DNA from: a virus
Direction: 5' to 3' (one strand)
DNA: 38,461 bases
IMG/VR virus record: IMGVR_UViG_3300020281_000056
Location: 1-38,461 of that record
Part shown: positions 1,554-29,926 of the stretch, piece by piece
Position numbering within the stretch: the stretch's first letter is position 1
How the letters are laid out: every line of letters starts with the position of its first letter
Position numbers and translations under genes: made by a program
The notes under the pieces: generated by a model
Database searches by the model: none
Seen by the model: the letters and a program-made list of their open reading frames with translations, nothing else
What the model was told of the DNA's origin: nothing

Positions 1554-3171
1554 GACTCAAGAAATAAAAAAATTAAAAGAGCTCTACCACAAAACAATAA
1601 AAATATTTGGACCACCCGGCACAGGCAAAACGTTTACATTGATTGAACGTGTTTTAAAAAAATACTTAAGATTAAATTATAATCCAGAGAATATTGCTTT
1701 TCTGTCTTTCACAAACAAAGCTGTTAACACAGCAGTACAAAGAGCTATGGATGCTTTTCCACAATATGGTGATAAAGACTTTAGTAGATTTAAAACATTG
1801 CATACATACTGTAGAAGATATTTTGAAGAAGAAGTCTTTGATCCTAAAGATTGTATGATTGATTATGCGTTGCAAACAAAGATAGTTAAAAGATCAGACA
1901 AGAGATTATCAGATGATAACTTTACATATAAAGACTGGTCGCTTGGTGTTTATTCTAAGTCTAGAAATTTATTAGTCTCACCAGAAGAGTGTTACAAAAA
2001 TGAAAGTTACAAACGAGACTCCCTTACAGTTTACCTTAGAAAGATTAATACATATGAGAATTACAAAAGAGCAGGCGGACAAAGATCTTTTATAGACTTT
2101 GATGATATGATTGAGAGAGCGATAAAAGAAGTAGAGTTTCCGAAACTATCTGTTTTAATTTTAGACGAAGCTCAAGATTGCACACCGTTGCAATGGTCTG
2201 TCATTTACAAGATGGCAACTAAGGTAGATAGAATATATTTAGCTGGAGATGATGATCAGGGAATATATAAATGGAATGGTGCAGACCCTAAATACTTTAC
2301 TAAATTTTTCCCAGGCAGAAAAGTTAAGTTAAGGAAGACAAGAAGATTTGGAGAAGCCATACATAAATTTTCTCAGATTATTAGAAGGGGCATACTTGAT
2401 AGTGAAGAGAAAGAATATTTACCAAGTGCAACACAAGGATATGTAAAGTCTTATTTAAATTTTAGAGAGATACCTTTTGATAAGAGTGAAGACACATGGT
2501 TTATTTTAGGTCGGGTACATAACACTGTTAATGAATTAAGAATGTTAGCTAAGGATGCTGGTTTATATTTCAAAGATAATCATGACAATAAATGTTTTGA
2601 CGAAAAACAATGGGAGGCAATCAAAGCTTGGACTAAGTTAAGCAACAATAAATCTATTAATAAAAAGGCATCACAAAATTTGTATAGGTTTATTAGAGAA
2701 GTAAGTGATTCGGATTACAGGACAGATAAGTTTTGGTCTAAGGAGCCAGACTACAGAGACTACACATTTGATTATTTAAAAGAATGGTGTGGCTTAGATT
2801 TACCTAATAGCTCACAAAAGAAACACTGGTTTTGGATATTGAAAAGAAATTTTAAGCCAGGTCAGACAAGAAATTTTATTAGACTACTTAGAAGGTATGG
2901 ACAAAAACAATTAGATCAAGAGCCTAAGATTATTATAGATACAATACACTCTGTAAAAGGAGATGAAGCTGATAATGTAATATTATATTCGAAAGCTAAT
3001 TACCCAGCAAATTTTAGAACAAAAAATAGAGAAGAAAAAATTAATGAAAAGAAAGTTTGGTACACAGGTGTGACCAGAGCAAGAAAGGCTTTACATTTAT
3101 TGAGAAGTGATTATAAATATAACTATCCGTTAGGTGCTGATTACTTAGTGTATATACAGGAAAAAAAATGA
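1546..3171 (+). CDS. UvrD/Rep-type superfamily 1 DNA helicase
   Basis: ATP-driven DNA unwinding, presumably at the phage replication fork. Visible motifs: Walker A GPPGTGKT (residues 22-29), LSFTNKAV (motif Ia region), Walker B LILDEAQD, a motif III-type DDDQGIYKWNGAD, TIHSVKGDEADNV (motif V region) and VTRARKALHLL (motif VI). The 541 residues fit a compact SF1A helicase without the long insertions of UvrD. The start overlaps the methyltransferase by 8 bases and the stop overlaps the DUF3310 gene by 4, so the primase-to-DUF3310 genes form one translationally coupled operon. The family is clear; the exact subfamily is not. Confidence 0.9.
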   Translation: MDKTQEIKKLKELYHKTIKIFGPPGTGKTFTLIERVLKKYLRLNYNPENIAFLSFTNKAVNTAVQRAMDAFPQYGDKDFSRFKTLHTYCRRYFEEEVFDPKDCMIDYALQTKIVKRSDKRLSDDNFTYKDWSLGVYSKSRNLLVSPEECYKNESYKRDSLTVYLRKINTYENYKRAGGQRSFIDFDDMIERAIKEVEFPKLSVLILDEAQDCTPLQWSVIYKMATKVDRIYLAGDDDQGIYKWNGADPKYFTKFFPGRKVKLRKTRRFGEAIHKFSQIIRRGILDSEEKEYLPSATQGYVKSYLNFREIPFDKSEDTWFILGRVHNTVNELRMLAKDAGLYFKDNHDNKCFDEKQWEAIKAWTKLSNNKSINKKASQNLYRFIREVSDSDYRTDKFWSKEPDYRDYTFDYLKEWCGLDLPNSSQKKHWFWILKRNFKPGQTRNFIRLLRRYGQKQLDQEPKIIIDTIHSVKGDEADNVILYSKANYPANFRTKNREEKINEKKVWYTGVTRARKALHLLRSDYKYNYPLGADYLVYIQEKK

Positions 3172-4717: not shown

Positions 4718-5169
4718 AAATAAAACCTACTACACTTAGGTTTGCAAATGAATATGTTAAACAGAATCATAGGCACAGTAAAATTGTACAAGGTTGTAAA
4801 TTTTGTATAGCTGCAATTGATGCAAAAGAAACTATTTTAGGAGTGGCAATAGTAGGTAGACCCGTATCTAGAAGATTAGATGATGGATATACTGCAGAGA
4901 TAGTTAGAACTTGCACAACAGGCACTAAGAATGTAAACAGTTTACTATATGGAGCTTGCGCTAGAATTTGGAAAGAAATGGGTGGGACTAAAATTTTGAC
5001 TTACACATTAGAGACAGAGACAGGGATAAGCTTAAGAGCAGCTGGTTACATACACTCAGGCACAACGCAATCTTTCTCGGAAGGTAAAGGTTGGACCACT
5101 CGCAAAGGTAGAGAGTGGCAACCTAAAGTACACTCTTTACAAAAGTTTAGATGGGAGAGATCTTTATGA
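4714..5169 (+). CDS. XF1762-family, GNAT acetyltransferase-like protein
   Basis: A 151-residue protein with the features I associate with the XF1762 family: an N-terminal NEYVKQNHRHSKIVQGCKF block, ILGVAIVGRPVSRRLDDGYTAEIVRTC, LLYGACARIWKEMGGTKILTYTL, and SLRAAGYIH. The order (His pair, GVAIVGRPVSR strand, LLYGAC helix) fits an acetyltransferase-like fold. In phages it sits in replication and DNA-modification modules, and relatives have been discussed as modifying enzymes; the substrate is unknown. It is coupled to both neighbours by ATGA overlaps, between two DNA methyltransferases and the polymerase, so a nucleic-acid-related role is a reasonable inference. Confidence 0.75.
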   Translation: MKIKPTTLRFANEYVKQNHRHSKIVQGCKFCIAAIDAKETILGVAIVGRPVSRRLDDGYTAEIVRTCTTGTKNVNSLLYGACARIWKEMGGTKILTYTLETETGISLRAAGYIHSGTTQSFSEGKGWTTRKGREWQPKVHSLQKFRWERSL

Positions 5170-9130: not shown

Positions 9131-9345
9131 TTGAAGCTCAAGATATTGAAAGAATAAATTTTCATCACAAAGGAAAAGAAAAGTTTAGTGTTGAAGTAAA
9201 TCAAATAACAGGCACTTTAGAACTATGGGTCAATGGCGAAAAAAGAAACGCTATTACGATAGAGCAGCCAATGGGTAAATTTGAAGAGATGCTTGAGTAT
9301 TGTAAAAATAAATTTTTAGAAATGAGAACAGGAGGTAAGCAATGA
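9127..9345 (+). CDS. Small hypothetical protein
   Basis: 72 residues: an N-terminal beta-rich part (FHHKGKEKFSVEVNQITGTLELWVNGE) and a C-terminal helix (GKFEEMLEYCKNKFLEM). No family recognised. Coupled to both neighbours by ATGA overlaps. A GGAGG close to its 3' end serves as ribosome site for the lipoprotein gene that follows. Confidence 0.55.
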   Translation: MIEAQDIERINFHHKGKEKFSVEVNQITGTLELWVNGEKRNAITIEQPMGKFEEMLEYCKNKFLEMRTGGKQ

Positions 9346-9506
9346 GACTTATAATGATGTTTGCATTTTTATTCTTAACAGGCTGCGGTTATACCGTGAC
9401 GTTGGGTAAAAAATGTACACCTGGGCATGATGAGTGGTCCTATGTCTGGTTTTTTGAGAAAGATGGATCACATGACATAAACAAAGGTAACTGTAGGAAA
9501 GAATAA
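9342..9506 (+). CDS. Small lipoprotein
   Basis: A 54-residue frame, ATG 9342 to TAA 9504-9506. The N-terminus MRLIMMFAFLFLTGC is a compact signal peptide ending in a lipobox (L-T-G-C, Cys15), so signal peptidase II processing is expected. The mature part is about 40 residues with two more Cys and no repeats. GGAGGTAAGC precedes the ATG. It overlaps its neighbours by 4 bases and 1 base. An outer-membrane spanin subunit is one option, but no inner-membrane partner is adjacent. Lipoproteins of this size in phages can also block superinfection; that is inference. Confidence 0.7.
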   Translation: MRLIMMFAFLFLTGCGYTVTLGKKCTPGHDEWSYVWFFEKDGSHDINKGNCRKE

Positions 9507-22179: not shown

Positions 22180-22385
22180 GTTTCGCAAAAGCAATATTAG
22201 ACGCTTTAGAGAAAAAATATGATGCTGAAATAGCTCATGGTGATGCTACAATAAAAATATACCTTACTAATTCAGTAGGAATTGGTGAACATCCACAACA
22301 CATTGAGGAAGTTGATAAGTTGATATCTAAAATTTGTCATGCTAAAGAGAAGAAAGAAGAATTAAAAAATTTTGGAGATTTATAA
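22176..22385 (+). CDS. Small conserved hypothetical protein
   Basis: 69 residues: MSFAKAILDALEKKYDAEIAH then GDATIKIYLTNSVGIGEHPQ and HIEEVDKLISKICHAKEKKEEL. A helix, a strand and a helix. Short proteins of this plan recur between portal and capsid genes of uncultured marine phages as I recall them. It overlaps the genes before and after (ATGA and a single base). No function assigned. Confidence 0.6.
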   Translation: MSFAKAILDALEKKYDAEIAHGDATIKIYLTNSVGIGEHPQHIEEVDKLISKICHAKEKKEELKNFGDL

Positions 22386-22771
22386 TGGCGTGGTTTAGTT
22401 TAGCAAAAATAGCACTACAAGCAGGTAGTAAAATATACGCAAATAGACAAAAAACAAAAATGGCAATGTCAGATGCACAACTCATGCATGCTGAAAAAAT
22501 GGCTCGGGGTGAAGAAGCTTACCAAGGCAAATTGCTTGAGGCTCGTCAAAACGACTATAAGGATGAATTTGTTTTGATAATTATTTCGGCGCCCATCGTG
22601 GTGTTAATGTGGGCAGTCATGTCAGACGATCCTGAAGCGATGGAGAAAGTAAAGCTATTCTTTGAGTATTTCCAGTCACTTCCTTCTTGGTTTACAAACC
22701 TGTGGATTCTTGTGGTGGCGAGCATTTTTGGAATAAAGGGTACACAAATTTTTAGAAATGGTAAGAAGTGA
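22385..22771 (+). CDS. Two-span membrane protein
   Basis: 128 residues with a basic helical N-terminus (residues 1-60) and two membrane segments, FVLIIISAPIVVLMWAVM (about 62-79) and LWILVVASIFGIKGTQIF (about 106-123). Between them DDPEAMEKVKLFFEYFQSLPSW is a conserved-looking block. The plan resembles holin-like proteins, but the long cytoplasmic-type N-terminus and its location among virion genes also fit a virion membrane protein. Holin function is not supported beyond topology. Its TGA overlaps the GTG start of the next gene. Confidence 0.6.
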   Translation: MAWFSLAKIALQAGSKIYANRQKTKMAMSDAQLMHAEKMARGEEAYQGKLLEARQNDYKDEFVLIIISAPIVVLMWAVMSDDPEAMEKVKLFFEYFQSLPSWFTNLWILVVASIFGIKGTQIFRNGKK

Positions 22772-27485: not shown

Positions 27486-27761
27486 ATGGCATTTAAATCA
27501 GACGTAAAAGCAGTTAGAACAAATGCTACTGGATCTTTATTTGGCGGTAGAACTAGACTAAGAGGTTTTATCCTTGGTAATTCATCTGGTGGTGGACAAG
27601 TTACTTTAAATGACTCGAGAGGAGCACAATTAGTTGTTGATGTTCCAGCGGGTGATATAGCCTCTACTAATTTACCTGAAGATGGTATTTTATTTGAAGG
27701 TGGAATATCAGTAACTGCAATATCTGCTAATACGACTATAACCGTATTTATAGATAAATAA
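27486..27761 (+). CDS. Small virion-type protein, copy 2 of a tandem pair
   Basis: 91 residues: FGGRTRLRGFILGNSSGGGQ, LVVDVPAGDIASTNLPEDG, then ILFEGGISVTAISANTTITV. The order of charged, Gly-rich and LP..GILFE blocks repeats that of the preceding gene, with low but clear similarity. ATAGGAG precedes the ATG. Its stop shares a base with the next start. Confidence 0.65.
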   Translation: MAFKSDVKAVRTNATGSLFGGRTRLRGFILGNSSGGGQVTLNDSRGAQLVVDVPAGDIASTNLPEDGILFEGGISVTAISANTTITVFIDK

Positions 27762-28063
27762 TGAATCAGTACACTGTTGAATTATTAAGCAAAGGAGGCA
27801 TGCCTCCTAGAAATAAAAAAAATTTCCGCCCAACGGAAAAGGGCGCTGGAATGACTGAGGCCGGAGTTAGAGCTTATAGAAGAAAAAACCCAGGTTCTAA
27901 ACTTAAAACTGCAGTCACAGGTAAAGTAAAACCAGGATCTAAGGATGCTAAGAGACGTAAATCATTTTGTGCTAGAAGCGCTGGACAAATGAAAAAGTTT
28001 CCAAAGGCAGCTAAAGATCCAAACTCAAGACTAAGACAAGCTAGAAGGAGATGGAAATGTTAA
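27761..28063 (+). CDS. DUF6321-like basic protein
   Basis: 100 residues, with a widely conserved C-terminal 70: MTEAGVRAYRRKNPGSKLKT, VTGKVKPGSKDAKRRKSFC, ARSAGQMKKFPKAAKDPNSR and a final RRRWKC. This pattern is known in many marine and other phages as DUF6321; its function is not established. It is highly basic and may bind nucleic acid. A conserved Cys ends the protein. It overlaps the next mini-gene by 7 bases and supplies its AAGGAG ribosome site. Confidence 0.8.
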   Translation: MNQYTVELLSKGGMPPRNKKNFRPTEKGAGMTEAGVRAYRRKNPGSKLKTAVTGKVKPGSKDAKRRKSFCARSAGQMKKFPKAAKDPNSRLRQARRRWKC

Positions 28064-28125
28064 AAAAAGTTTGGGACAAAATTAAAAAAGTTTGGGAAAA
28101 AATTATTTCTAAATTTTGGGTATAG
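28057..28125 (+). CDS. 22-residue cationic amphipathic peptide
   Basis: ATG 28057 to TAG 28123-28125. AAGGAG lies 6 bases before the ATG. The peptide is built of two nearly identical heptads, KKVWDKI and KKVWEKI, then ISKFWV: seven Lys, one Asp and one Glu (net about +5), and three Trp, with hydrophobic and Lys residues on alternating faces of a helix. This is the plan of membrane-active amphipathic peptides. It lies at the head of the lysis region, so a role in membrane or outer-membrane disruption is inferred. I know no homologue by sequence. Confidence 0.6.
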   Translation: MLKKVWDKIKKVWEKIISKFWV

Positions 28126-28128
28126 TTT

Positions 28129-28518
28129 ATGGCATTAAAAATTTCTGAGTCCGCAGCCGTACAAATGCCAATGAAGACGGTTGCTAGTTTGATCGCGATG
28201 GTCGCCATCGGGACCTGGGCTTTTTTTGGAGTACAGGAAACACTTAATCAACACTCAACTCAAATAGAGTTGATGCAAAAAGATTTAGACCAAAACTCCG
28301 AATTTAGAATTAAATATCCAAGAGGTGAATTAGGTCAGTCAGCTGGAGAAGCAGAGCTTTTTATGATTGTAGAACATGTTAGTGGCTTACTAGAAGATGT
28401 AGAGGAAGAAATTAAAGGTATGAGAAACAACGCTGTTAACATAGAATTTTTAAAGAAAAGAACTGAGAAGTTAACTGAAGATGTAGAAAAATTAATTAGA
28501 AACGGGAGTCATCAATGA
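28129..28518 (+). CDS. Single-span membrane protein with coiled-coil periplasmic or cytoplasmic part
   Basis: 129 residues: a short start, one membrane segment VASLIAMVAIGTWAFFGV (about residues 18-35), then charged helices with probable coiled coil (MQKDLDQNSEFRI, HVSGLLEDVEEEIKGM, LKKRTEKLTEDVEKL). Proteins of this plan stand beside endolysin genes in uncultured marine phages. The topology (N-terminal anchor and long helix) would suit an inner-membrane spanin, but no outer-membrane partner is adjacent. Holin or virion function cannot be excluded. It starts 3 bases after the amphipathic peptide. Confidence 0.6.
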   Translation: MALKISESAAVQMPMKTVASLIAMVAIGTWAFFGVQETLNQHSTQIELMQKDLDQNSEFRIKYPRGELGQSAGEAELFMIVEHVSGLLEDVEEEIKGMRNNAVNIEFLKKRTEKLTEDVEKLIRNGSHQ

Positions 28519-28724
28519 TAGAGACTGTGTTTGCATTAATCTTAACTTTAAACGGAAATATGATAGAGCACGTATACAAAAACTCGTTAAGCGATTGTTT
28601 GAAATCTAAGCGTATCGCGCAGAACGAGGTAAATCCTGAGAGAGTTGTATTTACTTGTAAGAAAGTAAAGGCTCAAACAGAGATATATATGGATCGAAAA
28701 AAAATAGTTAAAATATTGCCATAA
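28515..28724 (+). CDS. Small protein with hydrophobic N-terminus and two Cys
   Basis: 69 residues. MIETVFALILTLNGNMIEHVY is hydrophobic at its start (signal or anchor); then NSLSDCLKSKRI and RVVFTCKKVKAQ carry a Cys pair that could form a disulfide if exported. The block is familiar from marine phages. Start overlaps the previous TGA (ATGA). No function assigned. Confidence 0.6.
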   Translation: MIETVFALILTLNGNMIEHVYKNSLSDCLKSKRIAQNEVNPERVVFTCKKVKAQTEIYMDRKKIVKILP

Positions 28725-28810
28725 TGGAACCATTTATACCAGTGAATACTATCATAGCTTTTATATTACTTTGTGTTGTAATATATGTAGGTTTGAAAGA
28801 TAACGAATAA
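28724..28810 (+). CDS. 28-residue single-span microprotein
   Basis: ATG 28724 to TAA 28808-28810: MEPFIPVNTIIAFILLCVVI then a short polar end. It shares one base with both neighbouring genes (TAATG twice), so it fits the gap exactly. One transmembrane helix in the lysis region makes a pinholin-like role imaginable; not shown. Confidence 0.5.
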   Translation: MEPFIPVNTIIAFILLCVVIYVGLKDNE

Positions 28811-29469
28811 TGGCTTATCTAAATATTAACATTCCAACAATTTATGCTAAAGTTAAAAAGGAGTATTTATATGATTTGGATCCTAAATATAAAAAAGAAA
28901 GTTTGGACTGCATTATCTTTGGTATGGCGAGTATTACGGGAAAATCCCTCTTATTTCATTGCCTTTTACCAAATGGTGCGTGTTACTGGCGCTTGCCTAT
29001 CTCAGCGTTTTTTCAAAAATCATTTCATAGAGCCGAAGTGCCAGATATGTCGGTTGACGAGCTGGAATTGTGGAACTGTTTCAGTTATTATCCTAGTGTT
29101 ACTGAGTTTGATTTTTTAGGAGGAATGAGAGGAAAGTTTCTTGGTAAAGATAAAAAATTTTATAAAGGAGAATATTTATTTACAATAGACTGGGGGACAC
29201 CTGAAGTAAATGAAATTGATACAGAACATTCTGAGATACCTCAAGAACATAAGTGTGCACATATATTGGAACTCGATAACGGCAATTATGCTGCTCAGCC
29301 TAATAATCGTATCTTGTGGAGCGTTTCTAATTATACTACTGACAGATCTTGGCCAGACTATAAAGTGCAAAATACATATTGGACAGTCGAAAATAAAGAC
29401 TGGGTTACAGAAGATACAGACAAAATGTTTTACCAAATAGAGGAGGAGAAAGATGAAACTAACAGCTAA
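28810..29469 (+). CDS. Hypothetical phage protein upstream of the endolysin
   Basis: 219 residues, soluble. Recognisable blocks: ESLDCIIFGMASITGKSLLF, FHCLLPNGACYWRLPISAFF, ELELWNCFSYYPSVTEFDFL, then GKFLGKDKKFYKGEYLFTID and WPDYKVQNTYWTVE. This pattern is familiar from uncultured marine phages but has no function I can name. It overlaps the endolysin gene by 17 bases and provides its AGGAGGAG ribosome site, so the two are coupled. Confidence 0.65.
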   Translation: MAYLNINIPTIYAKVKKEYLYDLDPKYKKESLDCIIFGMASITGKSLLFHCLLPNGACYWRLPISAFFQKSFHRAEVPDMSVDELELWNCFSYYPSVTEFDFLGGMRGKFLGKDKKFYKGEYLFTIDWGTPEVNEIDTEHSEIPQEHKCAHILELDNGNYAAQPNNRILWSVSNYTTDRSWPDYKVQNTYWTVENKDWVTEDTDKMFYQIEEEKDETNS

Positions 29470-29926
29470 TATAACTTTAGATGAACTTTGTAAAAGTCAA
29501 ACTGCTGAAAGAAAAGGTATAAATAACAATCCTAGCCCTGAACAAATAGAAAATCTTAAAGCATTAGCAATAAATGTATTACAACCTATACGCTCACACT
29601 ATGACAAGCCTTTAATTATATCCAGCGGATTTCGATGTGCCCAGCTGTGCATAGAAATTGGCAGTTCAGTTAACAGCCAACATACAGCTTCCGATGAGTC
29701 AGCTGCAGCTGATTTTGAAATACCAAGTGTCGATAATAAAGAACTTGCAAAATGGATAAGAAATAATCTAGAAGTAGACCAAGGTATATTAGAATTTTAC
29801 AAGGATGGCGAACCTACATCAGGCTGGATACATTGCAGTTATTCACGTAATTCTAATAGACAACAATGGTTGCGTGCAAGTCGAGTTGATGGTAAGACTC
29901 AATATACACCTTGGTTAGGAGAATAA
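29453..29926 (+). CDS. Endolysin, M15 (D-Ala-D-Ala carboxypeptidase-like) peptidase
   Basis: 157 residues. The M15-type zinc site is visible: SQH with His77, AAADFE with Asp87 and GWIHCSY with His127. The N-terminal NITLDELCKSQTAERKGINN block is the usual beginning of this phage family, and IISSGFRC precedes the first ligand. It cleaves peptide stems of the host cell wall to release progeny. No signal peptide, so it needs a holin or pore to cross the membrane. AGGAGGAG precedes the ATG. Confidence 0.9.
   Translation: MKLTANITLDELCKSQTAERKGINNNPSPEQIENLKALAINVLQPIRSHYDKPLIISSGFRCAQLCIEIGSSVNSQHTASDESAAADFEIPSVDNKELAKWIRNNLEVDQGILEFYKDGEPTSGWIHCSYSRNSNRQQWLRASRVDGKTQYTPWLGE

Follow-up and report, generated by a model that had tools for sequence, protein, structure and literature searches.

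A hypervariable family of Lys/Trp-rich micropeptides heading the pelagiphage lysis block and its possible disruptin-like role

Can a reading frame of 22 codons at the head of a phage lysis region be a gene in its own right, and could its product contribute to the opening of the host cell? The window, i.e. the whole stretch of DNA analysed here, is a virus record of 38,461 bases. Its portal protein shares 75% identity with Pelagibacter phage HTVC023P and its DUF6321 protein 77%, and the gene located 3' of the micropeptide, a conserved membrane/coiled-coil gene that we refer to as CC, has its nearest counterparts in HTVC041P/HTVC121P (70%). Judged from these protein matches, the window is an HTVC023P-type pelagiphage, i.e. 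a phage of SAR11. The CC gene is also present on contigs from SAR11 single-cell genomes.

The micropeptide gene of the window

The gene, which is described here based on its translation, a candidate scan, selection and helix-moment tests, is located at 28057-28125 on the forward strand and encodes the 22 aa peptide MLKKVWDKIKKVWEKIISKFWV, followed by a TAG stop codon. The peptide contains seven Lys, three Trp, one Asp and one Glu, resulting in a net charge of +5. An earlier note, made from the DNA letters alone, had proposed a real mini-gene of this length, composition and approximate charge with a KKVWDKI/KKVWEKI repeat, and the translation bears out all of these features. The well-spaced AAGGAG, which it had also pointed out, is located at 28045-28050 (forward strand), within the last codons of DUF6321 (RRRWKC) and 6 nt ahead of the ATG at 28057. 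Since an in-frame alternative ATG at 28051, which would give a product of 24 aa, immediately abuts the AAGGAG, 28057 is the better start.

The DUF6321 gene itself (27761-28063, forward strand; 100 aa; Pfam PF19846, E=5e-14) extends with its stop 7 nt into the micropeptide gene. On the other side, the micropeptide gene ends 3 nt upstream of the start of CC (28129) and, close to the 1.3 kb given earlier, 1,328 nt upstream of the M15 endolysin gene (start 29453). The suggestion that the peptide would be amphipathic if helical also holds, since only 14 of 20,000 shuffles of its own residues reached the hydrophobic moment of MLKKVWDKIKKVWEKIISKFWV; its lipid-binding discriminant is D=2.4.

A family with a common position and design

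We compiled 332 loci, comprising 320 IMG/VR relatives of four neighbouring genes, 11 isolate regions and the window. Part of these loci represent the same contig reached via different scans, and distinct peptides and distinct intervals are therefore the safer counts. Ribosome-site-led ORFs of 14-45 aa were screened for a charge of at least +3, at least two Trp and a high helical moment. The coding strand had 105 passing ORFs out of 941, whereas the opposite strand had none out of 317 and dinucleotide-shuffled loci had 11 out of 2522, i.e. ORFs of this profile are far more frequent than expected by chance. Note, the thresholds partly preselect charge, Trp content and moment, so that the frame test described below and the strand and shuffle controls weigh most; a position-only set without a composition filter showed the same majority of this Lys/Trp-rich (KW) type among its short ORFs.

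After the removal of unrelated ORFs, we retained 84 distinct KW peptides (length 15-44 aa with a median of 26 aa; charge +5; three Trp), which form 29 clusters at 0.6 similarity. We set aside 21 KW-type ORFs located elsewhere in the loci as lying outside the family, among them the MWKKICKW set, which seems to be a downstream DUF5872-like gene read in another frame, and MKRFGLGI, a lipoprotein. Nearly all of the 84 peptides are encoded in one slot, behind the DUF6321 gene or a PurM-annotated gene and ahead of CC. A KW peptide is present in 79 of the 125 distinct intervals, including 29 of the 31 behind DUF6321. Two gene orders are common, namely DUF6321-KW-CC-ORF69-TM28-PurM-M15, which includes the window, and PurM-KW-CC-ORF69-(TM28)-M15, and the median distance from the KW peptide to M15 is 1.4 kb. 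Two loci encode two different KW micropeptides in one block (L018:4487-4567 and 4920-4997; L028:2625-2696 and 3029-3106), one behind PurM and the other before CC, which are possible two-peptide pairs.

The frame test was based on 31 independent pairs picked by DNA similarity, omitting the first three codons. The pN/pS ratio was 0.24 in the peptide frame; the other forward frames gave 0.95 and 0.98. Of the changes, 54, 42 and 109 were located at codon positions 1, 2 and 3, respectively, which corresponds to a third-position excess (109 of 205). Among the reverse frames, the ratio was 0.46 where third positions are shared with the peptide frame, and 0.98 and 1.35 in the others. As the peptide frame is the only one of the three forward frames with a ratio well below 1, we conclude that the KW peptide frame is a translated, constrained gene. 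Frame-specific selection together with the strand and shuffle controls led us to reject a chance frame in AT-rich DNA. The check that the earlier note had proposed, i.e. a synteny search for short frames rich in Lys and Trp in the stretch from DUF6321-like genes to the endolysin, was thus strongly passed, with 84 distinct peptides under purifying selection.

The hydrophobic moment has its maximum at 95-105 degrees in 79 of the 84 peptides and exceeds 95% of own-composition shuffles (p<0.05) in 53, while the lipid-binding discriminant is above 0.68 in 82. The family is composed of 21% Lys, 12.5% Trp and 11.7% Ile. Aligned members often differ in length by 4 or 11 residues, blocks with which the helix phase is kept, and AlphaFold2 predicts a single helix (residues 2-35, pLDDT 88) for a member of 37 aa. 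The sequence varies fast, while helix design and charge are conserved. When two members of the family were searched by tblastn (E 10) in 50,697 phage records, no useful match was obtained, and scans of 21 members against Pfam, NCBIfam and PHROG as well as PDB searches returned chance-level hits only, and our literature search found no published description of a KW micropeptide family.

Strongly amphipathic cationic helices bind membranes, and it is this established behaviour that leads us to expect membrane binding of the KW peptides. The presence of 84 distinct peptides in the same position and under purifying selection gives good support to a putative cationic, membrane-active helix that leads the lysis block. 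The same data bear on a translational-coupling leader, i.e. an ORF that merely feeds ribosomes to CC and whose peptide is functionless. Such a leader would explain the stop codon 3 nt before the start of CC and the missing ribosome site of CC, but it is disfavoured by the pN/pS ratio of 0.24, by the conserved helix moment and charge and by the presence of KW peptides in loci where the next gene is not CC, and we consider it highly improbable.

Neighbouring genes and other occupants of the slot

CC (28129-28518, forward strand; phrog_20984) encodes a protein of 129 aa, for which an N-terminal TM helix and a two-helix domain are predicted. AlphaFold2, run on an alignment from which isolate sequences were left out, places helices at residues 15-56 and 72-126, joined by a linker (mean pLDDT 73, pTM 0.27). 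The first helix spans a hydrophobic stretch at about residues 17-35, which a 19-residue hydropathy scan with a threshold of 1.6 did not list. Lambda Rz is built on the same plan, i.e. an N-terminal TM and two helices with a linker (PMC6139136). By its predicted fold, which is of moderate confidence, CC looks like an i-spanin, while a fold search in BFVD gave no confident match. An o-spanin lipoprotein was not found in the region near CC; the window has a single lipobox ORF, which lies in its early region (9342-9506, forward strand) and encodes a 54-aa lipoprotein (MRLIMMFAFLFLTGCGYT...). The earlier statement that the region has no clear spanin pair is therefore right with regard to the lipoprotein gene, but does not account for the i-spanin-like topology of the very next gene, and we describe the region as not clearly spanin-less, with an i-spanin-like protein and no visible o-spanin.

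Lipoproteins and secreted proteins were observed in relatives. A Pro-rich lipoprotein (MKISLLLIVLVLLGNCASQT..PPPKPKINE) fills the KW slot in one of them, and a lipoprotein of 40-44 aa (MKRFGLGIMILLFL(T/M)SCSQ...), which was not found in the window, is encoded 3' of M15 in three loci (L249:2916-3038, L225:5550-5672, L013:7833-7967) and represents a candidate outer-membrane partner. A movable gene pair (e.g. L083:3139-3992), consisting of an N-terminal TM coiled-coil protein and an MDYRFT secreted protein, often with a PPPKPK end, inserts 5' or 3' of CC and may itself be a spanin-like pair.

According to a ribosome-site tally, CC is without a ribosome site of its own in the window and in 47 of the 49 distinct intervals with a KW peptide directly before CC. 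Together with the stop codon located 3 nt before CC, this makes it likely that translation of CC is coupled to that of the micropeptide, and both products probably arise in a constant ratio. This arrangement would suit a non-lytic tether or regulator, in which the surface-bound helix aids the assembly, localization or timing of CC or another partner. The same role is suggested by the Lys/Trp helix that forms the tail of small Cys-rich (zinc-ribbon-like) proteins in the slot, such as MSLNICIDCNFEKKRCQCVVELPKVKISWWKRILNWFR and those of L317, L324, L354:4758-4985, which is from a SAR11 single-cell genome, and HTVC027P gp12 (L083:2971-3129). However, 12.5% Trp, 21% Lys and a strong charge exceed the needs of a tether, and the position of the KW peptide relative to CC shifts where the MSMIVG13-MDY gene pair is inserted, so that we regard a tether as rather unlikely. 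In L317 and L354, the helix portion of the Cys-rich protein has its own internal ATG.

The slot is occupied in relatives by such Cys-rich domains with a KW tail, by TM peptides or by no peptide, which indicates that the function of the micropeptide is either not universal or replaceable. Cultured HTVC023P does not encode such a KW peptide, and the KW-tailed Cys protein is all that HTVC027P has of it. In HTVC010P, HTVC041P, HTVC121P, HTVC203P and Skadi-4 (L081, L082, L086-L088), the slot holds proteins of 35-68 aa, in which an amphipathic helix rich in Phe is combined with a tail of Lys (MIDKIIYKFASFLDAIGDKLDD...KKKRK). HTVC041P gp45, HTVC121P gp52, Skadi-4 gp24 and HTVC010P AGE60314.1 resemble the KW peptides in their slot before CC or after DUF6321, their N-terminal amphipathic helix and their Lys-rich tail, but differ in length (35-68 aa), in using Phe instead of Trp and in a near-neutral helix with the charge in the tail. 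Accessory genes typically change fast in sequence and alternate with other occupants of their slot, which could point to a peptide for host takeover or exclusion that targets the host membrane at an early stage of infection. Yet the KW gene has the capsid module on one side and the endolysin on the other, and its linkage to CC-ORF69-M15 is kept, so that we give an early role very little credence.

The remaining genes of the block, all on the forward strand, are ORF69 (28515-28724; phrog_24646), a small protein kept directly 3' of CC; TM28 (28724-28810), which is present in part of the relatives and whose 28 aa look like a single TM helix, a possible holin-type partner; a phrog_3704 gene (28810-29469) with a PurM/ferredoxin annotation in isolates, which in other relatives is located directly 5' of the micropeptide; and the M15 peptidase endolysin (29453-29926; Peptidase_M15_3, E=1.6e-18), as the earlier note had recognized, without an obvious signal sequence. 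The endolysin thus appears cytoplasmic and the block is without an annotated holin, which raises the possibility that the micropeptide, itself a cationic amphipathic helix (18-37 aa) synthesized in the cytoplasm without a signal sequence, acts from the cytoplasm to permeabilize the inner membrane and thereby releases M15. Known holins have TM segments. By hydropathy, the micropeptide has no transmembrane stretch and was not among the TM candidates of the scan, while TM28 and a two-TM protein (22385-22771) are the better holin candidates of the window, and a holin-like role is accordingly unlikely in our view.

A disruptin-like role and comparison with known systems

By synteny with HTVC023P, a capsid gene is located just 5' of the block in the window, which makes late expression of the micropeptide likely. 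In the mechanism that we propose, the micropeptide would be made late, together with the capsid and lysis genes, and would build up on the anionic inner membrane, on the side of the cytoplasm. After the inner membrane has been opened and M15 has cut the wall, it could reach and disorder the outer membrane, either alone or with the CC protein. The KW peptides probably help to break open the host cell, since their sequence changes fast and the membrane-binding design is nevertheless kept. That the peptide acts on the outer membrane during lysis would be the most economical explanation and parallels the disruptins (PMC12819732). Against a role in lysis counts that the upstream neighbours, DUF6321 and PurM, are not lysis genes; the KW helix at the end of Cys-rich proteins, which also fits a tether, and the relatives without a KW peptide lower certainty, and the i-spanin-like CC may give the phage another route through the outer membrane. 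Altogether, we see an about even chance that 28057-28125 belongs to a hypervariable family of Lys/Trp-rich, membrane-active micropeptides that head the pelagiphage lysis block and act like disruptins at lysis. A more specific two-part system, in which the KW micropeptide replaces the o-spanin and works with the coupled, i-spanin-like CC to open the SAR11 outer membrane, has a slim chance.

Identifiable spanins are missing from about 13% of the phages that infect Gram-negative hosts, and the use of disruptins there has been stated as open (PMC12819732). With dozens of natural sequences of common position and design, down to 15 aa, the KW family makes this question directly testable. Micropeptide genes of this size are too short for routine annotation, but can be detected via position, frame selection and helix periodicity, and this one was so far overlooked in phages of SAR11, the ocean's most abundant bacteria. 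The likely mechanism is already known from phage lytic amphipathic peptides; what appears to be new is the family, together with its minimal size and hypervariability.

Disruptins are short amphipathic helices, whose diversity makes prediction hard (PMC12819732), and the PhiKT disruptin is gp28 according to Holt et al. 2022, as cited in PMC12819732 and PMC9239132. Like it, the KW peptides are phage-encoded, short cationic amphipathic helices (by prediction), are linked to lysis genes (KW-CC-ORF69-M15), carry no family signature and are diverse; they are set apart, by description, by their 15-44 aa, Trp richness, head-of-block position, many sequence types and i-spanin-like neighbour. The earlier claim that the peptide of the window is far shorter than known ones fits the comparison of its 22 aa with the PhiKT disruptin, which reportedly has about 56 aa. 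Compared to the two-component Rz/Rz1 spanins (Kongari et al. 2018, PMC6139136), CC matches the i-spanin plan with an N-terminal TM and two linked helices by prediction, but in the window a micropeptide instead of a lipoprotein o-spanin is found in the neighbouring position. Finally, the KW peptides resemble cationic helical antimicrobial peptides (LL-37-like) in charge, Trp/Lys content and amphipathic helix, and differ from them as intracellularly made phage products, which are without a signal sequence and probably translationally coupled.
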